IMG/VR virus record: IMGVR_UViG_3300026488_000055
Coordinates: 1 to 21,520 of that record
Direction: 5' to 3' (one strand)
Length of the DNA stretch: 21,520 bases
From: a virus
Shown: positions 4,775 through 21,520 of the stretch, piece by piece
Layout: the number at the start of each line of letters is the position of its first letter
How positions within the stretch are numbered: position 1 is the first letter of the stretch
Notes under the pieces: generated by a model
What the model saw: only the letters and a program-made list of their open reading frames with translations
What the model was told of the DNA's origin: nothing
The model's database searches: none
Made by a program: the position numbers and the translations under genes

Positions 4775-5533
4775 TCACCCTTCTTTAATTTCTGTTTTCA
4801 CGGGTTCTTTATCTCGTTCATCAGGTGGATATAAAGGTTCAGTATTTATTGCTTTCATTGTGTATTTTTCTAATTTTTTCATTGTATCCAAATCAAAATA
4901 ATTTATATCAATTTCAAGTATTTCTTTAGATATTCTTTCAGGAATAAAGTAATAAATTTTAGCAGTAAAAGACAAAGTTGCATTCAAAATTCTTAATTCT
5001 TCAGTTGCAAATTCTTCAGGAATATCTAACATTACACTTTGCAAATAGATTGGAACAGAAATTGCATCAATCTCTGGGTGTAATTTAATATCTAAAGAAA
5101 TACTTGGAGAGAAAAATGGAATAATTTGTTCTATTATTTGAAATAAATCATAAACAGTTTTTGTTGAAATGAATAAATCAATAGTCATTTCATAAGGAAC
5201 AGGCATAAAAGTGTATTTATGATTAAATCGAATTTTGTTAAGTTTATTCAATTGTCTTTGAGAATCATAATTTAATCCTGTTATTGAACATGCCATTCGT
5301 GGAAGTGCTAAATCAAAATAAACAGGAGTTGTTGTTGTATTATCATCTTTTTTAATTCCAATAGAAGATAAAACAGAAATATAATGTTCTTTAGATGCAA
5401 AATTAATTGGAACTTTTATTTGTCGTAATTTATTATTATTCTCATCAAATTTATAAATTGTTATATTTGAAAAAAATTCCATAAATGCTAAAATTGTTTT
5501 TAATGAAATATTAAAACTAAAATAATTTTTCAT
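4775..5533 (-). CDS. gp15: Tail terminator / sheath stabiliser (T4 gp15 family)
   Basis: 252 residues, close to T4 gp15 in length. It caps the head-proximal end of tail tube and sheath and docks the tail to the neck. The match to gp15 is visible along the sequence: FMEFFSNITIYK, IKVPINFASKEHY, LPRMACSITGLNYDSQRQLN, then VPYEMTIDLFISTKTVYDLF and QIIEQIIPFFSPSISLDI, which parallel FSNIQIKR, VPITYASKEHF, LPRINL and QIVEQILPYFQP of T4. The C-terminal tail (PLYPPDERDKEPVKTEIKEG) is acidic and proline-rich. It lies between gp16 (downstream, 4 nt) and a U32-like gene (upstream, 5 nt). Confidence 0.93.
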   Translation of the reverse strand: MKNYFSFNISLKTILAFMEFFSNITIYKFDENNNKLRQIKVPINFASKEHYISVLSSIGIKKDDNTTTTPVYFDLALPRMACSITGLNYDSQRQLNKLNKIRFNHKYTFMPVPYEMTIDLFISTKTVYDLFQIIEQIIPFFSPSISLDIKLHPEIDAISVPIYLQSVMLDIPEEFATEELRILNATLSFTAKIYYFIPERISKEILEIDINYFDLDTMKKLEKYTMKAINTEPLYPPDERDKEPVKTEIKEG

Positions 5534-5538
5534 TTTTA

Positions 5539-6582
5539 TTATTCACCTTCAAAATCAATTTGTTTCATTGCTTTAGAAAATATTATTTCTTTGCAATAAT
5601 TACAATTTTCACATTTTTTGTTACATTTATTTCTAAATTCAAAAAAGTCATTGGGAATTCTTTTATTATCCAAATAATAATAATATTTTAATGCGTTTAA
5701 AGAATCTAAAATTTCTAATAAATTCCCATCAAAATCTTCAGTAAAATATGCTAAAAGCACTTTTTTTAATAAATCTTCATTAAAAGTTCGTCCAGCAATT
5801 TTAAAAATTATATCATCATCAAAATTTTGTAATTCTTCTGGTCTAATAAAAGGACTTTTTAATACTAAATATGGGTTATGTTTATATAATTTTATACATC
5901 CTAATTTTTCATTTATATTAGAATAAAATTCAAAATTATTTTTTATTATTATTGAATTATTAATTGATAAATTATTTAAGATAGAAATAACAAAATCATG
6001 AGAACATTTAAATGGACAATTAAAAAGGCATCCTTCATTAACTAAAATCTTTACTTTAACATTTTCTTTTTTTAATTTTTCTATCAAAATATTTCGTTTA
6101 TTTTGCAACAAATTTAAATTTCTATCAATATTTATTTCTTTTATTTTTTTCAAACCATTTAATTCTAAAAAATCATTTAAACTATAAAATTTTTCTATTG
6201 AATCAATTCCAAAATTTATACTTGGAATATAATTAATTTGCTTAAAAAAATCATCAAATTGAATTAAAAATAATAAAAAATATGTATCTAAAAAAACAAT
6301 GTTATTAATATCGTATTTAATTAAAAAATCTTTTAATTTTTTTATTTGATTAATATCATAATTGTTTATAAAAGCAAATCTGCCATTTAATAATACATTT
6401 TTTTGAATTGAATTATCTAATTCATTTAATAATTCATAGTTTTTCTCTTCAAAATCCATTCGTGCTGAATTATTTATTATATCTGGAATTGAAAAATATA
6501 CAGAATAAATTTTACTTTTATATTTATTGACAAAATCAATATATGATTTACTAAATTTTAAAGGAATATCAAAAAGTTTCAT
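5539..6582 (-). CDS. COG0826 / peptidase-U32-family protein (Fe-S type, YegQ/RlhA/UbiU relatives)
   Basis: 347 residues. The decisive region is VKILVNEGCLFNCPFKCSHD (residues about 177-196), the cysteine signature of U32/COG0826 proteins, followed by KSPFIRPEELQNF (242-254), FKIAGRTFNEDLLKKVLLAYF (260-280 region), DGNLLEIL and a terminal C320-x3-C324-x2-C327-x2-C330 cluster. Cysteines 185, 189, 193 and 229 complete a set of eight. The N-terminal half reads as a TIM-barrel-like series (IVFLDTYF, IPSINFGIDSIEKF, IKEINIDRNLNL). Characterised relatives (TrhP/YegQ, RlhA, UbiU-UbiV) carry out hydroxylation of tRNA, 23S rRNA or ubiquinone precursors, several with an Fe-S cluster; the older peptidase label is doubtful. 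Its phage role is unknown. It lies between gp15 and an unknown gene, overlapping the latter by ATGA, and is not a known virion component. Confidence 0.72.
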   Translation of the reverse strand: MKLFDIPLKFSKSYIDFVNKYKSKIYSVYFSIPDIINNSARMDFEEKNYELLNELDNSIQKNVLLNGRFAFINNYDINQIKKLKDFLIKYDINNIVFLDTYFLLFLIQFDDFFKQINYIPSINFGIDSIEKFYSLNDFLELNGLKKIKEINIDRNLNLLQNKRNILIEKLKKENVKVKILVNEGCLFNCPFKCSHDFVISILNNLSINNSIIIKNNFEFYSNINEKLGCIKLYKHNPYLVLKSPFIRPEELQNFDDDIIFKIAGRTFNEDLLKKVLLAYFTEDFDGNLLEILDSLNALKYYYYLDNKRIPNDFFEFRNKCNKKCENCNYCKEIIFSKAMKQIDFEGE

Positions 6583-7136
6583 ATGAACTTTAAAATTAAA
6601 AATGATGGTTCACATAAAAAATTAATATCTTTTACCCTAATTTTACTTATACCCCATTCATCAACAATTATTTTAATTTCACATTGTTTATTTTCATCTA
6701 ATTCTAAAATTTTAGAACTTAAAAAGTTTTCTAATATTTTTGCTCTATCTTTTACTTTAATTTTTGTTATTTCATCAACCCAAGAAATATTATCAGGATT
6801 CTCAATAAATATTTGCAATAAATATTCTTTATTGATTTTTAATTTATTATTTAAAATTTCATTATTATTCTCATCAAAAATTTTAAAATTAAAAAATGGT
6901 CTTTTTAAAATCTTGTTAGATGTTTCATCATAAACAAATTTATAAGGGTATAAAAAAATCTCTTGAGATATTAATTTATCATCTTCTATAATTTTACTTT
7001 CACATTTACTATTATCAATAATACTTTTTGCATAAACATCTTTACAAAATGCATTTAAAACTTTAGATGTTTCAGTATCAAAATATAAAATTTTTTCTAT
7101 AATTCCATAATTTTTATTATAAAATATTTCATACAT
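6579..7136 (-). CDS. Unknown protein
   Basis: 185 residues, not recognised. It is rich in Lys, Asn, Ile and Glu and appears mixed alpha/beta, with no membrane segment or signal peptide. The segment FNFKIFDENNNEILNNKLKI then EYLLQIFIENPDNISW looks like paired beta strands with a turn, as in appendage-associated or Ig-like domains, but I cannot assign a family. It is coupled at both ends: its start lies inside the last codons of the Cys-repeat tail protein (8-nt overlap) and its stop overlaps the start of the U32-like gene by ATGA. The tight coupling suggests a functional link with one or both neighbours. Confidence 0.6.
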   Translation of the reverse strand: MYEIFYNKNYGIIEKILYFDTETSKVLNAFCKDVYAKSIIDNSKCESKIIEDDKLISQEIFLYPYKFVYDETSNKILKRPFFNFKIFDENNNEILNNKLKINKEYLLQIFIENPDNISWVDEITKIKVKDRAKILENFLSSKILELDENKQCEIKIIVDEWGISKIRVKDINFLCEPSFLILKFI

Positions 7137-7883: not shown

Positions 7884-8906
7884 TTAAAACAAATAAATTA
7901 TCTGCCCACCTAAAACAACTATACTAACAAAAACTAATAATGTTCCATAAAAATAAAAGAAAGGAACATTAAAATACATTTTTGAAATAATTGTGCATTT
8001 ATGCGTTGGAGAAATAAAATATCCTGCAAAATCAATTAAATATAATAATGGTAAATAATGATTTCCAAATAAACTAATTCCTATTCCTGTTAATGCAGCA
8101 TATCTTGATGAACTACCAAGAATAACAGAACCTATAAAAGATAAAATAACAAATAAAATTAAGACTGATGAAGATTGTGAAATTGATTTGAAATATGGAG
8201 TTCCATATAATTTTAAGAAATGAGTTGCAATCATTAAAACAGCAAGAAATATTATTAAATTGTAATTTATATTTTTTAATGATTTGAAAAATTGATTATA
8301 ATCTAACAATATCATTCCAATTAGAAAAATTAAAAAGAAACTAAAATAATTATGAATTAATAGTGCAATAACAAGTCCTAAAAGTCCAGACATTAAAATA
8401 TATTTTACTTCAATTGGATTCACCTTTATTGAATTATCAAGTCCTAAAATATTTATATCATCATTTTTTATCCAAACAAAATAAGCAAACATCAATAATA
8501 TGAAATATGTTACTATTGCTGGAAATAGTAAATGTAAAAATTGAAAATAACTTATTCCTGCCACTCCAATTGTAATTATAATTGATTTTTCTAATGGAGA
8601 CCAAAGATAATAATGATGCGAAGACAGATACGCTAAAATTCCCATTTTTTGATTGTTTTTTTCTTTATTTTGAATACTATCTAACATTCCACATGCTAAA
8701 ACAATTCTCCCAGGAACGGGTAAAAATCCAAGAACATTTACAAATAAAAACAATAATAGTTTTTTATTCTTTATTTTTTTAAGAATAAAATCAATGATTG
8801 GAACAAAAAGTTGTTTATTTTTTAGAAAATCAGAAATAACCAAAACAGAAAACAATAAAAATACATAAGGAACAATACCAAAGACAAGTTTTTTTAATTC
8901 TATCAT
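7884..8906 (-). CDS. DUF401-like multi-pass membrane protein (ion-transporter superfamily)
   Basis: 340 residues with roughly nine or ten hydrophobic segments along the whole length. Three signatures point to DUF401 (COG1906): GFLPVPGRIVLACGMLDSI at 60-78, corresponding to the family LPxPGG motif; YLSSHHYYLWSPLEKSIII at 93-111, corresponding to the NYWFRHxWExxxP region; and GYFISPTHKCTIISKMYF at 295-312, corresponding to SPxHLCLVLTxxYF. SSRYAALTGIG (266-276) fits the second pore-loop half. DUF401 proteins are uncharacterised inner-membrane transporters of bacteria and archaea; substrate is unknown. I know of no virion role. Translation starts from AGGGGG eight bases before the ATG, overlapping the end of the gp14-like gene by context (4-nt gap). 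Likely host-derived cargo. Confidence 0.7.
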   Translation of the reverse strand: MIELKKLVFGIVPYVFLLFSVLVISDFLKNKQLFVPIIDFILKKIKNKKLLLFLFVNVLGFLPVPGRIVLACGMLDSIQNKEKNNQKMGILAYLSSHHYYLWSPLEKSIIITIGVAGISYFQFLHLLFPAIVTYFILLMFAYFVWIKNDDINILGLDNSIKVNPIEVKYILMSGLLGLVIALLIHNYFSFFLIFLIGMILLDYNQFFKSLKNINYNLIIFLAVLMIATHFLKLYGTPYFKSISQSSSVLILFVILSFIGSVILGSSSRYAALTGIGISLFGNHYLPLLYLIDFAGYFISPTHKCTIISKMYFNVPFFYFYGTLLVFVSIVVLGGQIIYLF

Positions 8907-8910
8907 TTAA

Positions 8911-9570
8911 TTATCCCCCTAACAATGGATTTTTTTCAGAATTATCAACAATATTTAATTCTTTCTCTTCATCTTCAATTTCTTTATTATTTCTTTCAAT
9001 ATCTTCATCATTTAAATCAAATAAATCTTCTAATTTAGGAAATGTAGGAAAATTATCATAATCTTGTGTTGCAACTTCTTGCGGAACAATATCATCATAA
9101 TCAAAAATAAATAGTTTACATTCTAATTTATAAGCATAATTTTTTCCTAATGGAAAATTCACTCCTGGTATATTATAATCAGTTACATAAGTTATCTCAA
9201 ATAATCTATCTGAAACAACATGGTAAATCAAATCCTGTTCTTTAGGAATTATATTAAAATGTTGAAACAATTTTTTTGGAGCATACACAGTCATTTCATC
9301 ATTTAGTTGTAATCCAAATTTTGTAAACATGTTACCAGGTCCTGCAAATCCTTCAACTTCTTCAACATAAACCCGTAATGCTTGTGCTTTTTCACTTATC
9401 TTTGTTTTAAATTCTTCAAATCCAGAAACTTCATTTAAAAGTTTTCTTTGAATATAATAAATATCTTGTCCATTTAAATATACTGCTTCTATTAAAATAT
9501 TTTCAAATGTTTCAACTTCTTTATTATCTTTTCTTGAATTATTAAACAAAAATGGATAATCAAATCTCAT
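8911..9570 (-). CDS. gp14: Neck protein (T4 gp14 family)
   Basis: 219 residues. A head-to-tail connector protein that with gp13 completes the filled head for tail attachment. The N-terminus RFDYPFLFNN matches the DYPFFFNN opening of gp14. Next come ENILIEAVYLNGQDIYYIQR, LRVYVEEVEGFAGPGNMF, TKFGLQLNDEMTVYAPKKLF and LIYHVVSDRLFEITYV, each with a clear counterpart in gp14 (ESIxxxGxDxxYxPR, GFxGEGxxxSKFGLExRDEMTF, GDLIYFPxxxxLFEITFV). YKLECKLFIFDYDDI aligns with its YKLQCExFEYSSED end. An acidic C-terminal extension of about 45 residues follows. The gp13-like gene lies a little upstream, separated by two extra genes. Confidence 0.92.
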   Translation of the reverse strand: MRFDYPFLFNNSRKDNKEVETFENILIEAVYLNGQDIYYIQRKLLNEVSGFEEFKTKISEKAQALRVYVEEVEGFAGPGNMFTKFGLQLNDEMTVYAPKKLFQHFNIIPKEQDLIYHVVSDRLFEITYVTDYNIPGVNFPLGKNYAYKLECKLFIFDYDDIVPQEVATQDYDNFPTFPKLEDLFDLNDEDIERNNKEIEDEEKELNIVDNSEKNPLLGG

Positions 9571-11691: not shown

Positions 11692-11994
11692 TTATCCTAC
11701 TATTACATTTGGACTTCCAGTTACTTGTGTAACAATCAAACAACCAACAGCACAATCCCCTATTCTTGCTGTTGCTCTATTATTTGTTTTAACAGTTGGA
11801 CTTCCTGAACAAATTACACCAACATGCCCACAAAAACCAAGAACAATATCCCCTATTCTTGCAGTTGGTCTATTATTAGTTATTACATCTGAACTTCCAG
11901 TTACAACAACACCACACATTGGAATACAACAAGAAGGACAATGACAACAACAAATTCCGCAATATATATCTCCAATTCGTCCAACTGCAGGCAT
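11692..11994 (-). CDS. PAAR-repeat spike-tip protein, cysteine-rich
   Basis: 100 residues, the usual size of phage PAAR proteins such as T4 gp5.4. It should form the sharp metal-bound cone on the central spike. Three RxGD elements mark the fold: R6-IGD, R46-IGD and R77-IGD, with TGSSDVITNNRPTARIGD and SGSPTVKTNNRATARIGD as near-repeats and TGSPNVIVG at the end. Odd feature: 12 cysteines, eight of them within residues 12-27 (including CCCHCPSCC), plus His18 and His57. Typical PAAR tips bind a single metal with a few His/Cys ligands, so this insertion may bind extra metal or be disulfide-linked. Neighbours are an unknown 368-residue protein (5 nt upstream) and the small basic protein. Confidence 0.9.
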   Translation of the reverse strand: MPAVGRIGDIYCGICCCHCPSCCIPMCGVVVTGSSDVITNNRPTARIGDIVLGFCGHVGVICSGSPTVKTNNRATARIGDCAVGCLIVTQVTGSPNVIVG

Positions 11995-17065: not shown

Positions 17066-18151
17066 CTATCCAAATAATTTTTTAGATTTTTGGACAAGGT
17101 TATGTTTAATAAAAGGATTTTTATCAGTTTTTATAACATCATAAATATTTTTCAATTCACTTATTATCAGTTTGAAAATTTTATTTCGTTCAGGTTTAAT
17201 ATCAAATTTGTTAAAAATCTCTTTATCTTTCCAAGCAATCACTTTCACATCATCAATATTAAACAATTTTAAAATTTTCTTATCAGTTGTTGTTATATAA
17301 ATATATTTTACAATATCTCCTTGTTTAATCTTTTCTAAAGGAAGTTTGTATTCATCTATTAAAATATTATAAATCAAGGATGCTTTAATATGCTGTGGAG
17401 TTGCTTTTTGGAATGTGTAAATTCCATTTTTTTTCATAATTTGATAACTCTCAAGTTTATTAACCTTTGAACTAACTGCTAAATCATCTATAGATAATTT
17501 TTTTAATACAAGATTTTTCAATTCTTTATAATAATGTAATGCTTTTGTGTGGTCTTTTTCCATCAATGAATTCAAAATATTTTTTAATGTTGGTTTTATC
17601 TTTTCAGGTGTTGATGATTTTATCAAATCTAAATTTCTTGCTTTTAGAGAAGTTTCAGTATAAAAATCTCCATCATAATATTTTTTCATTATGTATTTCT
17701 TCTTCACTTCCAAAAACAAAGTATAATCTGATAATAATTCAAATTCCATCTCAATTGTTTCATCAAAACTATTAAGACTTTCAAGTCCTCGTTTAATAAT
17801 TTTCTTTATTAAATTTTCAATCTTACTTATTTCTTCTTTTACTATTTTAAATTGTTCAGTTTTTGATAATTGCTTAAAGTTTGGAATTTTTTTATTTAAA
17901 TAATCACCCAATAATACAAAAATTGAATCTGTATCAGAATAATTGATTTTATACCCTTCTTTTTCAAGATATTTTATTACCAATTTAAGAACATATCTAC
18001 CACCTGCAGTTATTGACATTGCAGAATTTATATTAAAATACTTAAAATGCACATTTGCTTGTGCTCCATAAAACCCATTAATAAAAGTTTTATATGCTAA
18101 ATTGTGCAAATGTGCATCATTATATTGGTTAATTAATTCATTCTTTTTCAT
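17066..18151 (-). CDS. gp43B: Family B DNA polymerase, C-terminal half (motifs B and C, thumb), T4 gp43-like
   Basis: 361 residues carrying the rest of the polymerase domain. Motif B is KTFINGFYGAQAN (K21, N25, Y28, G29), followed by FKYFNINSAMSITAGGRYVL, as in T4 gp43. Motif C is YSDTDS (Y71-S76) with metal-binding D73 and D75. EVKKKYIMKKYY at about 157-168 corresponds to the KxY/KKRY element contacting primer DNA; the remainder is thumb. It has its own ATG and an AGGTGAG Shine-Dalgarno site, so it is a separate translation product. It should assemble with the 516-residue half, as the split falls between the two helices of the fingers. Confidence 0.92.
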   Translation of the reverse strand: MKKNELINQYNDAHLHNLAYKTFINGFYGAQANVHFKYFNINSAMSITAGGRYVLKLVIKYLEKEGYKINYSDTDSIFVLLGDYLNKKIPNFKQLSKTEQFKIVKEEISKIENLIKKIIKRGLESLNSFDETIEMEFELLSDYTLFLEVKKKYIMKKYYDGDFYTETSLKARNLDLIKSSTPEKIKPTLKNILNSLMEKDHTKALHYYKELKNLVLKKLSIDDLAVSSKVNKLESYQIMKKNGIYTFQKATPQHIKASLIYNILIDEYKLPLEKIKQGDIVKYIYITTTDKKILKLFNIDDVKVIAWKDKEIFNKFDIKPERNKIFKLIISELKNIYDVIKTDKNPFIKHNLVQKSKKLFG

Positions 18152-18161
18152 TATCTCACCT

Positions 18162-18395
18162 TTATTCTTCGTATTTTATTATTCTATTCACTGGAACAAT
18201 TATTTCAACATCAACTTTTTCAGGATTAGGCACGACTTCATATTGTTTTGTTTCTGGATTTATTTTTTGTGTGTAATTTTGTCTTTCCATTTTACCTTTT
18301 ATCTTAACCATTTTGACTGTTGTATTTGGTAAAGTATAATCTTCCAAATTCTCAACTTCAATAGGTTCATAAGAATACAAATAAATCTTTGCCAT
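18162..18395 (-). CDS. Unknown 77-residue protein interposed in the split polymerase gene
   Basis: 77 residues, not recognised. It has a clear AAGGAG site 8 nt before its ATG, which supports translation. The sequence is beta-like and contains an IYLYSYEPIEVENLEDYTLP start, TTVKMVKIKGKMERQ, and a VEIIVPVNRIIKYEE end; it is not recognisable as polymerase fingers, intein or homing endonuclease. It lies 36 nt after the exonuclease half and 10 nt before the motif B/C half. It may be an unrelated insertion or a small partner of the split enzyme. Confidence 0.65.
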   Translation of the reverse strand: MAKIYLYSYEPIEVENLEDYTLPNTTVKMVKIKGKMERQNYTQKINPETKQYEVVPNPEKVDVEIIVPVNRIIKYEE

Positions 18396-18431
18396 TTTTC
18401 AATCTCCTTTTTGAAAAAATTAAATTCAATT

Positions 18432-19982
18432 TTATTTAAATTCTCGTATTTTTTGTTCAAGTTCTTTTTCTCTTCTTTTCCATTTCTTTCTTTCATTAAA
18501 CATAAATGAAATCATTTTTGGAATTATACCATAAATTTTTCTACTTGTAAAATCAAAATTTGGTGTCATACATAAATCATATTTTTTTAACAATGGAGTG
18601 ATATATTTTTCAACAAAATCTAAATCAAGTAAAACATCTTCTCGTTCAAGTGATTTTATTTTTGATAACATTTTTCTTTTCATTTTTAAAACTTCATCAG
18701 GTAATTCTTCATCAGAAATTAAAGTTTCTAAACTTATATTATAAGACCTAATCTGGTTAGGATAACTTGAAGTAATATCAAATACAGCAACCCATTCATA
18801 TTCTCCTGCTTTTGGTTGTTTTACATATCCACCTGGATATGATGGTCGTTGTTTACTTTGTTTATTCTCTAATCGTGGAATTAATTTTTCTTTATACATA
18901 AAAAATTCTAATAAACTTTCTGCAGGTGCTATTGTTCCTAATGCTTTATCAAAATTTATCAAAGTAAGGTATGAATACTCAATTACAAACTTTAAAATAT
19001 GAGATTTTTGTTCAAGTAAATCAATCAACTCAACATCTTTAAAGTTATATTTCATATACAAATCAAAATCATTTTCATACAAATTTGTCAAATTTCCTTC
19101 ATACTCAACTTTACCTTCTCCTAATTCGTGTTTTGCAACATAATCGAGTTTATATGATGGAAGTTTTTTAAAAGAGAATTTTTTATAAAGTTCTAAATAG
19201 TCCAAAATGGAAATTCCTAAAATGTAATTCAATTTGTTTAAATCAACAAATTTTGAAAGATTATTCATTTTCTCTTTTAAAGTTAAATTAAATGGTATTA
19301 AATTTGCAAATAACATATACATATCTTTAGGAAATAATTTTTTTATCCTGTTAGCAATATAATACATATCATATTCAAGAATATTCCAACCCGTAATAAT
19401 GTGTGGTTTATAAACAGAAATAAATTTTACAAATGAATATAATAATTCTCTTTCATCTTTGCATACTTTTTTCTTTGTAATCCCTTTAAATTCATTTGCT
19501 ATTTCAAACTCTCTTGTTGTGAATGTAAAAAATTGTTTATTTTTTCCAATTTCTTTTACTGTTATAACAGAAATAGGAAATTCAGCATCTTTTGCTTCAG
19601 GAAAAACAGAATTGTCTTGTCCTGTATATACTTCAATGTCCAAAGATAAAATTTTCATTTTATCAAATTGTTGTTTTAATTTATCTTTTGTTTTTGAATA
19701 TTCTTTAAACAAAAACAATCTATCTTCATTAAATCCATATACAGGTAAATTAGAATTTACATGTGATTGTTTAGTATCATTGTATTCTTTCCAATCATCA
19801 AAAGTCTTTGGAGCAAGTGGTCGTAAAGCAGGATAAGATTTTATATTTGATTTCCCTTTTGTTAAAGGAAAAAATAAAATTTTTGGAAGTGGTAAAATTT
19901 CCATTTTATCAATGAATTTTTCATCAAGGTATCTAAAAAATATCTTTGAACCAAATTTTTTATAATATGTGTAATATTTCAT
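18432..19982 (-). CDS. gp43A: Family B DNA polymerase, N-terminal half (3'-5' exonuclease and motif A), T4 gp43-like
   Basis: 516 residues. Exo I is SLDIEV with D115 and E117; Exo II is TGWNILEYD (N200, D205); Exo III is YNFKD (Y312, D316). YPGGYVKQPKAGEY (382-395) matches the T4-type FPGAFVKEP element. Motif A is FDITSSYPNQIRSYNISLET with catalytic D402. The protein ends with IPKMISFMFNERKKWKRREK, the first fingers helix, and then stops at REFK. All exonuclease and motif A residues are intact, but motifs B and C are absent and lie in the gene at 17066-18151. Its ATG overlaps the stop of the upstream membrane protein by ATGA. Confidence 0.93.
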   Translation of the reverse strand: MKYYTYYKKFGSKIFFRYLDEKFIDKMEILPLPKILFFPLTKGKSNIKSYPALRPLAPKTFDDWKEYNDTKQSHVNSNLPVYGFNEDRLFLFKEYSKTKDKLKQQFDKMKILSLDIEVYTGQDNSVFPEAKDAEFPISVITVKEIGKNKQFFTFTTREFEIANEFKGITKKKVCKDERELLYSFVKFISVYKPHIITGWNILEYDMYYIANRIKKLFPKDMYMLFANLIPFNLTLKEKMNNLSKFVDLNKLNYILGISILDYLELYKKFSFKKLPSYKLDYVAKHELGEGKVEYEGNLTNLYENDFDLYMKYNFKDVELIDLLEQKSHILKFVIEYSYLTLINFDKALGTIAPAESLLEFFMYKEKLIPRLENKQSKQRPSYPGGYVKQPKAGEYEWVAVFDITSSYPNQIRSYNISLETLISDEELPDEVLKMKRKMLSKIKSLEREDVLLDLDFVEKYITPLLKKYDLCMTPNFDFTSRKIYGIIPKMISFMFNERKKWKRREKELEQKIREFK

Positions 19983-20416
19983 TTATCCTGTTCCTTTTTC
20001 TCATTTAATTTCTCTTGAATTATTTTATCTAAATATTTCAAACTTTTATTTGGAATTTTAGAAATAAGTTCAGTATTTTCTTTTGTTAAAATTGTATTTG
20101 CCGTAAACATTTCAACTATGCTTGTTTTTGAAGGAATTACTAAAAGCAATAAAGTTATAATTGCAAATACAATTCCAATTTTTCTAAAAATTTTCAAATA
20201 AAAATTCTTAATTGTTTTTTGTGATTCTATAATTTCATTATTTTTTTCAACAAATTTAAAAAGTGCATTTCTTCTTAATTCATCTTGGTATTCTAAAAAA
20301 TTTATAAAAACAAAAATCCCCATTATTATTGAAACCACTCCAACCAAAATCCATAAAATAAATAAAATTTCTTTTAAAGATGGTAAAAATGCCAAAAGAA
20401 ACCACCATTTGAACAT
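19979..20416 (-). CDS. Small membrane protein, paralogue A
   Basis: 145 residues. The N-terminal hydrophobic stretch (MFKWWFLLAFLPSLKEILFI to about residue 41) spans the membrane once or twice; a charged helix follows and then another segment IGIVFAIITLLLLVIPSK (about 78-95). The C-terminus (FTANTILTKENTELISKI, PNKSLKYLDKIIQEKLNE) is almost identical to that of the gene at 21233-21520. Proteins with a TM-IPSK-...-helix layout recur in phages without known function; a holin or membrane-regulator role is only a guess. Strong AGGAGG site. Its stop overlaps the polymerase start. Confidence 0.7.
   Translation of the reverse strand: MFKWWFLLAFLPSLKEILFILWILVGVVSIIMGIFVFINFLEYQDELRRNALFKFVEKNNEIIESQKTIKNFYLKIFRKIGIVFAIITLLLLVIPSKTSIVEMFTANTILTKENTELISKIPNKSLKYLDKIIQEKLNEKKEQDK
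20001..20074 (-). repeat. Near-identical repeat in membrane paralogue A (matches 21246-21319)
   Basis: By direct comparison 72 of 74 positions match 21246-21319. It encodes the C-terminal TELISKIPNKSLKYLDKIIQ region and part of the stop-proximal end. Such low divergence relative to the rest of the two genes implies recent duplication or gene conversion. Confidence 0.85.
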
Positions 20417-20417
20417 T
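20376..20417 (-). repeat. 5'-end repeat of membrane paralogues A and B (matches 20810-20851)
   Basis: 39 of 42 positions match 20810-20851. It encodes the shared start MFKWWFLLxFLPSL of paralogues A and B, and it supports the ATG start chosen for B. Confidence 0.8.
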
Positions 20418-20418
20418 T

Positions 20419-20850
20419 TTATTTTCCTCCTTCATCCAAATTCTCTTGGATTATTTTATCTAAATATTTCAAATTTTTATTTGGAACTTTAGAAATAAAA
20501 TATTCAGCATTATTTTTTGTTAAAAACACTTTTGATGCAAAAATCATTTCAAGATAACTTGTTTTAGATGGAATTATTAAAAGCAATAAAGATACAATTA
20601 CAAACAAAATACCAAATCTTTTAAAAACATTTATTTGAAAGTTTCTTATTATTTTAAATGATTTTTCAATTTTATCCATTCTTTTCAATCCATAAATTAC
20701 ATCTTTTCTTAATTCTTCTTGATATTCTAAAAAATTTACAAAATTAGCAAAAAGCATTACCATTAAAATTATCCCTATAAAAATCCACAAAACAGATAAA
20801 ATTGCTTTTAAAGATGGTAAAAACACCAAAAGAAACCACCATTTAAACAT
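20419..20850 (-). CDS. Small membrane protein, paralogue B
   Basis: 143 residues from ATG 20850. A TTG at 20865 could extend it by five residues, but the sequence from ATG begins MFKWWFLLVFLPSLKAIL, the same as paralogue A, so the ATG is preferred; a GAGGGGTG element lies upstream. Two hydrophobic regions (residues about 4-42 and FGILFVIVSLLLLIIPSK) and the C-terminal KVPNKNLKYLDKIIQENLDE repeat the pattern of A and C. It ends 2 nt before paralogue A starts. Confidence 0.7.
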   Translation of the reverse strand: MFKWWFLLVFLPSLKAILSVLWIFIGIILMVMLFANFVNFLEYQEELRKDVIYGLKRMDKIEKSFKIIRNFQINVFKRFGILFVIVSLLLLIIPSKTSYLEMIFASKVFLTKNNAEYFISKVPNKNLKYLDKIIQENLDEGGK

Positions 20851-20888
20851 TCTCACACCCCTCAAAATTTATTCATTTGTTTTTTATT

Positions 20889-21230
20889 TTAATCTTCCAT
20901 CATAAATTTTTTCATTTTAATAAAATTTGAAACTAACACTGCTTGTTCATCAGTAACTGATTTTAAAATTTTATCTTCATCTTTTTCAATTTTATTATTC
21001 CCATTTTCAATTTTATTCTCTATTTCAATCTTATTTTTTTCAAACTTAATTTTATTTTTTTGAGATTCAAGGATTATCTCCTTTCTAATTTTTGCATTTT
21101 GTTCTAAAATTTTTATAACGGTGTAAATAGAAAACACTATAAAAATAATTATAATAAATACACCTAAAAGCAAAAGATTTTGTGGAGAGAATAAATTCAT
21201 TAAAAACCATTCCCATTCAGTTTTACACAT
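20889..21230 (-). CDS. Membrane-anchored coiled-coil protein
   Basis: 113 residues. One transmembrane helix (LLLLGVFIIIIFIVFSIYTV, about 16-37) follows a short N-terminus with tryptophans, then a long Lys/Glu/Asn helix (KNKIKFEKNKIEIENKIENG onward) likely to be a coiled coil. It lacks the C-terminal NKSLKYLDKIIQE block of its neighbours, so it is not a full paralogue, but its arrangement (N-terminal TM then charged helix) is similar. AGGAGG lies upstream of ATG 21230, overlapping the end of paralogue C. Confidence 0.65.
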   Translation of the reverse strand: MCKTEWEWFLMNLFSPQNLLLLGVFIIIIFIVFSIYTVIKILEQNAKIRKEIILESQKNKIKFEKNKIEIENKIENGNNKIEKDEDKILKSVTDEQAVLVSNFIKMKKFMMED

Positions 21231-21232
21231 TT

Positions 21233-21520
21233 CTATTTTCCTCCTTCATTTAATTTCTCTTGAATTATCTTATCCAAATATTTCAAACTTTTATTTGGAA
21301 TTTTAGAAATAAGTTCAGTGTTATCCTTTGTTAAAAATGTATTTGCTACAAACACTTCAATAAGTTCCTTTTTTGTTGGAAAAACAGAAACAACAGTCAA
21401 TAAAATTACAAAACCTATAATACTTTTTTCTAAAGTTTTTTCTACTTTTTTTAAACATTCATCACTTAATCCATTTTCATAACAAATTACAATATTCCAT
21501 ATTCCAAAAAACAAAATAAT
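21233..21520 (-). CDS. Small membrane protein, paralogue C (partial, start outside window)
   Basis: At least 93 residues; the frame stays open to the right edge. The TTG at 21514 is not a convincing start because paralogues A and B have an extra N-terminal membrane segment there, and the reading frame continues (encoding Ile-Ile before it). The visible part has a transmembrane segment SIIGFVILLTVVSVFPTK and the C-terminus FVANTFLTKDNTELISKI, PNKSLKYLDKIIQEKLNE, virtually the same as paralogue A. Probably a complete gene cut by the window. Confidence 0.65.
   Translation of the reverse strand: MILFFGIWNIVICYENGLSDECLKKVEKTLEKSIIGFVILLTVVSVFPTKKELIEVFVANTFLTKDNTELISKIPNKSLKYLDKIIQEKLNEGGK
21246..21319 (-). 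repeat. Near-identical repeat in membrane paralogue C (matches 20001-20074)
   Basis: Partner of the repeat at 20001-20074; two differences in 74 positions. The related stretch in paralogue B (about 20431-20505) is clearly more diverged. Confidence 0.85.

Follow-up and report, generated by a model that had tools for sequence, protein, structure and literature searches.

We have identified, in a 21.5-kb viral fragment (21,520 nt, analysed whole and hereafter called the window), a gene for a U32-like protein in a cassette with a fibre-like protein, and propose that its product is an Fe-S enzyme acting on the fibre-like protein or the 185-aa protein encoded with it, by hydroxylation or some other modification. 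We put the probability of this reading at about 0.45. We observe the U32 fold, conservation of ligand positions across relatives, and the same cassette in three divergent phages. The association of such an enzyme with a fibre-like protein suggests that the host-binding proteins of some phages are chemically modified by the phage itself.

The open reading frame, with its ATG start, matches the description in the first-pass annotation exactly (Table 1). It is a genuine gene and not a chance reading frame, because relatives occur in phages and bacteria, its start overlaps the upstream 185-aa gene by 4 nt (ATGA), and gp15 begins 5 nt past its stop on the same strand. It had been placed between gp14 and gp15, and both do flank the region, but three further genes separate it from gp14; the minus-strand order is gp14, a DUF401/CitMHS-like gene, the fibre-like gene, the 185-aa gene (these two overlapping by 8 nt), the U32-like gene and gp15. 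Other T4-like genes of the window encode a sheath, a gp5-like hub, the small terminase and a gp13-like adaptor. The sheath matches many T4-like phages, all at <60% identity, and thus the window phage belongs to a distant T4-like lineage. Elsewhere in the window, the DNA polymerase (17066-19982) appears as a pair of ORFs (18432-19982 and 17066-18151) separated by one of 77 aa; four small membrane-like proteins lie in a row at 19979-21514, three with a common S(K)IPNK(S/N)LKYLDKIIQE-type tail; and a Cys-rich, PAAR-like spike-tip protein was recognized by eye at 11692-11994.

Table 1. Features of the window and of related loci discussed in the text
Feature	Coordinates or loci	Strand	Remarks
U32-like protein, 347 aa	5539..6582	-	Predicted TIM barrel ~1-282, C-terminal Cys4 motif
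gp15 tail sheath stabiliser	4775..5533	-	PF16724; downstream neighbour of U32
185-aa protein	6579..7136	-	Homologues precede U32 in L125 and L144
Fibre-like protein, 239 aa	7129..7848	-	Three CIP.SDE.GK-type repeats and a C-terminal domain
DUF401/CitMHS-like membrane protein	7884..8906	-	phrog_14035
gp14 neck protein/head closure	8911..9570	-	PF11649
RB69-type operons	L002:4296-6460, L124:2852-4958, L003:4308-5698		U32 and TS homologue, often chorismate mutase
Gastranaerophilales Cys/Tyr-rich leader peptides	L241, L248, L251, L254, L258		Directly upstream of U32, with TupA-like ATP-grasp genes

Characterized U32 relatives are oxidases, and the assignment of the window protein to this family is upheld by its fold and by homology to RB69 ORF050c, itself a PF01136 match (7.4e-11, 42.2 bits against a cut-off of 22.4). 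For an AF2 model (46 sequences; pLDDT 83.4, pTM 0.86), the top PDB hit was 5d88, a U32 protein (Z 16.4 over 225 residues; Foldseek 1.6e-8), ahead of generic TIM barrels (Z 11.7), and the top match among viral structures was an RB69-type 'peptidase'. The structure search proposed earlier thus recovered a U32 fold and not an unrelated one. The window protein has no match to PF01136 above the cut-off, and we therefore file it in a divergent U32-like clade with a predicted U32-fold TIM barrel, not as a PF01136 member. It matches the phrog_5757 'peptidase' profile (E 1.9e-9, residues 25-298), and a TrhP-like protein, searched as a single sequence, is detected with the clade profile at 1.7e-10; the best segment lies in the N-terminal half and the K-x2-G-R block aligns weakly. 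A direct sequence search of the PDB gave no convincing relative, a first genome scan found nothing, and scans of viral_contigs with the single protein or the first alignment returned nothing or RB69-type matches only; the virion-type relatives described below were recovered only with core and clade alignments.

The sequence features listed by the first-pass annotation are all present: the VNEGCLFNCPFKCSHD signature, the SPFIRPEEL and FKIAGRT blocks, eight cysteines (185, 189, 193, 229, 320, 324, 327 and 330) and the C-terminal C-x3-C-x2-C-x2-C. We aligned 59 relatives (35 of cyanophage/marine type, 6 of RB69 type, 2 from L148, 13 bacterial and 3 window-like). N66, N182, E183, C185, C189, C229, K261, C324, C327 and C330 are invariant in all 59. 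The searches themselves used NExC and the C-terminal Cys motifs as patterns, so that part of this conservation is to be expected; no pattern included H195 or N66, and C229 was used in a single scan, the one that retrieved L125. K261 and G264 are invariant or nearly so in phages and bacteria alike, and C320 is found in 53/59, with the RB69-type proteins having a slightly displaced Cys. Position 195 is His in 51 relatives and Cys in the other eight (RB69 type and L148). Conservation of the cysteines among homologues, which had been raised earlier as a point on which the family reading could fail, extends to seven of the eight. The exception is C193, and H195 instead provides the eighth conserved ligand position.

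From this conservation, two four-ligand metal sites are likely, C185/C189/H195/C229 and C320/C324/C327/C330, and the former, in the TIM barrel, would most likely hold an Fe-S cluster. That the protein retains the U32 fold without catalysis, serving in the virion or its assembly, would be in keeping with the location among structural genes, but is most improbable given that the putative ligands and K261/G264 are kept. Known U32 oxidases have a CX6CX15CX3C cysteine motif (PMC11574389). This spacing is absent from the window protein, which has C-x3-C-x5-H ... C and the C-terminal Cys4; in a hand-read alignment, the essential Glu of TrhP, E162, lines up with K178, with the invariant E183 nearby. 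We count both differences against the fibre-modification reading.

The order of fibre-like protein, ~185-aa protein and U32-like protein is kept in the window and in the IMG/VR contigs L125 and L144, to whose U32-like proteins the window protein is 35% and 38% identical, respectively. The fibre-like protein has six Cys, five of them within its repeats; its C-terminal domain is ~66% identical to that of its L144 counterpart, and its AF2 model is beta-rich and of low confidence (pLDDT 53.5). A scan of IMG/VR with this C-terminal domain matched, beyond the window, only the two U32-carrying contigs L125 and L144, and isolate phages gave no match.

More broadly, we define a virion-type group comprising the window, L125, L144, L148 and cyanophage family GC 354 (phrog_1458), with 123 cyanophage records and 313 confirmed IMG/VR stretches, 80 of which were fetched. 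Viral relatives lie mostly among tail-fibre genes, and in S-CAM4 the U32-like gene is in a cluster preceding the neck genes. In GC 354 the U32 domain is fused to a PF13578 methyltransferase, which is a separate neighbouring gene in other loci. Across 82 viral U32 loci, many of them near-duplicates so that counts overstate independence, this methyltransferase is fused or adjacent in most, fibre genes lie upstream in 58, a 2OG-Fe(II) oxygenase gene is found around U32 in 40, a radical SAM gene lies directly upstream in 20, and a DUF401-like gene is nearby in 32 (within six genes in 29). Profiles of the U32-associated genes, DUF401-like included, matched 0/98 control T4-like loci, in which gp13 and gp15 profiles matched 36 and 50, respectively; because these controls were fetched by sheath or gp15, and are thus centred on other genes, and the family loci include near-duplicates, the counts show association, not exclusivity. 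In the window itself, neither a radical SAM nor a methyltransferase gene was recognized, a point against the fibre-modification reading, and no leader or precursor peptide of the kind a RiPP maturase would act on was seen beside the U32-like gene.

Some of these viral loci have further unusual content. Of the three radical SAM genes in the L148 contig, which also has two U32 genes, two are PapB-like (7e-23 and 9e-38); a 381-aa protein of this contig (L148:8762-9907), mostly of [CDCNYCT]n repeats, looks like a RiPP-type structural protein. The P-SSM4 'denV' gene beside GC 354 (L140:7551-8060) reads, by eye, as a 2OG-Fe(II) oxygenase.

The recurrence of the DUF401-like gene beside U32 and its absence from controls could mean that the window enzyme and the DUF401/CitMHS-like membrane protein together modify a small molecule or host-surface glycan, for example as a superinfection block, and host-recognition islands of marine myophages also hold surface-polysaccharide genes (PMC7029224). 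However, the membrane gene is absent from L125 in the part seen, and the RiPP-like relatives discussed below point to peptides; we regard this alternative as quite unlikely.

In the fibre-modification reading, the enzyme, with a putative metal site in its TIM barrel and the C-terminal Cys4 site, would modify the fibre-like or the 185-aa protein before it is built into the virion. TrhP, RlhA and UbiUV suggest, by analogy, that the chemistry would probably be O2-independent hydroxylation. TrmR acts after TrhP, and in cyanophages the fused methyltransferase may similarly act on the new hydroxyl. We infer the substrate from gene context, which is no proof of it, and from bacterial relatives in RiPP-like clusters.

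The bacterial relatives fall into two sets. In our tree, the window protein joins L144 (100/97), and both group with L125 and Desulfobacterota proteins (100/88), apart from the RB69 and cyanophage types; this placement is tentative because branches are long. The Desulfobacterota proteins, the nearest cellular relatives, are not in RiPP clusters, which also counts against the fibre-modification reading. In Gastranaerophilales, the gene order is a TupA-like ATP-grasp gene, a Cys/Tyr-rich leader peptide, U32 and sometimes a radical SAM gene (adjoining in L241 and L246), with up to eight U32 copies in one genome. The peptides, at five loci, are 68-164 aa long, with a shared acidic leader, alike in most pairs when compared with shuffles, and a Cys/Tyr-rich core; they contain 7-9% Cys, against a background median of 2.5%. 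This RiPP-like layout, a candidate RiPP class, is the main reason for favouring a peptide or protein substrate, and no paper found in the part of the literature searched described U32 proteins from RiPP clusters. Additionally, three U32 relatives (L243:1363-2547, L244:1495-2670 and L250:1111-2292) begin, by eye, with Tat- or lipoprotein-like signals and may thus be exported.

The Desulfobacterota grouping makes RNA modification the strongest rival, because three members of this set are arranged in tandem with TrhP-like U32 genes (L232, and by eye and family profile L261 and L262); a TrmO-like gene, identified by eye, adjoins two of the tandem loci. In this alternative, the window enzyme, like TrhP or RlhA, would hydroxylate RNA of the host or the phage, at the wobble U of tRNA or a C of rRNA, and so tune translation during infection; characterized nucleic-acid U32 enzymes use prephenate and act on RNA (PMC6599085). 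However, the phage copy lies in a fibre cassette and not among tRNA- or RNA-modification genes, no tRNA gene was found in the window, and related viral and bacterial copies accompany fibre genes or precursor peptides. Thus, where the first-pass annotation offered action on host tRNA or rRNA or on a virion protein, the former finds no support in phage gene context and we consider it unlikely, whereas the latter fits that context better. A wider and more tentative proposal, which we rate as possible but short of an even chance, is that the clade consists of O2-independent protein or peptide hydroxylases that would serve tail-fibre maturation in T4-like phages, joined in some lineages by methyltransferases and radical SAM enzymes, and maturation of RiPP-like Cys/Tyr-rich peptides in gut Gastranaerophilales.

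A second phage branch, of RB69 type, is found in 218 T4-like isolate records. Its operon partners are arabinose-5-phosphate isomerase, a nucleotidyltransferase and a thymidylate synthase (TS) homologue, the last near U32 in 14/14 loci; chorismate mutase, whose product is prephenate, is present in 11 of the 14 (in Thanatos, a CM_2 match at 8e-8). RB69-like phages have arabinosyl-5-hydroxycytosine DNA, with 5-hydroxy-dCMP synthesis credited to the TS homologue (PMC13390438), and the authors of the Thanatos study gave no hypothesis for the source of the hydroxyl (PMC12838424). As TrhP needs prephenate (PMC6599085), RB69-type U32 is, by analogy, a possible source of this hydroxyl; the idea may already have been published, although we found no papers linking U32 proteins to 5-hydroxycytosine in phages in the part of the literature searched. 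The window enzyme might likewise help to make modified DNA bases, as its homologue ORF050c in the arabinosyl-hydroxycytosine operon probably does, and the operon partners of that homologue speak for this alternative. We consider it very unlikely, as no TS or chorismate mutase homologue was found in the window (a fragment) or in the 82 virion-type loci, and the two types differ in clade and in the His/Cys switch at position 195.

That a phage encodes a U32 protein, as first noted for this window, is correct but not new in itself, given the 218 isolate records and the matching of RB69 ORF050c to Peptidase U32 in 2006 (PMC1524935); such proteins are already on record as annotations. Within the partial literature searched, the novelty seems to lie in the virion-type clade, which has a ligand set of its own, is linked to fibre genes and modifying enzymes, and has bacterial relatives of RiPP-like layout. 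The family goes only by 'hypothetical protein' in hundreds of phage loci, those of well-studied cyanophages among them. If the fibre is modified, phage host binding would rest on chemistry invisible in sequence alone, and a protein would join RNA and quinones as substrates of U32 enzymes. A testable idea for the hydroxyl of 5-hydroxycytosine comes additionally from the RB69 branch.

Compared with known systems, the window protein shares a TIM-barrel fold, conserved Cys and the K-x2-G-R block with TrhP, RlhA, UbiU and UbiV, but their cysteine spacing, the TrhP Glu and a Pfam U32 match were not found in it. RB69 ORF050c (phrog_5757), also from a T4-like phage, has the U32 fold, NExC, C229, K261-x2-G-R and the C-terminal Cys cluster in common with it, but is ~26% identical, has Cys at position 195, and sits in a DNA-hypermodification operon. 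The Desulfobacterota proteins (L224-L236; 26-32% identical, most of them 28-32%) share the NEGCL[YF]xCP[FY]K motif and Cys4 tail, but are chromosomal, some paired with a TrhP-like gene. Cyanophage T4-GC 354, although fused to a methyltransferase and ~20-25% identical, has the same ligand set as the window protein, including His195, and likewise lies among tail-fibre-like genes.
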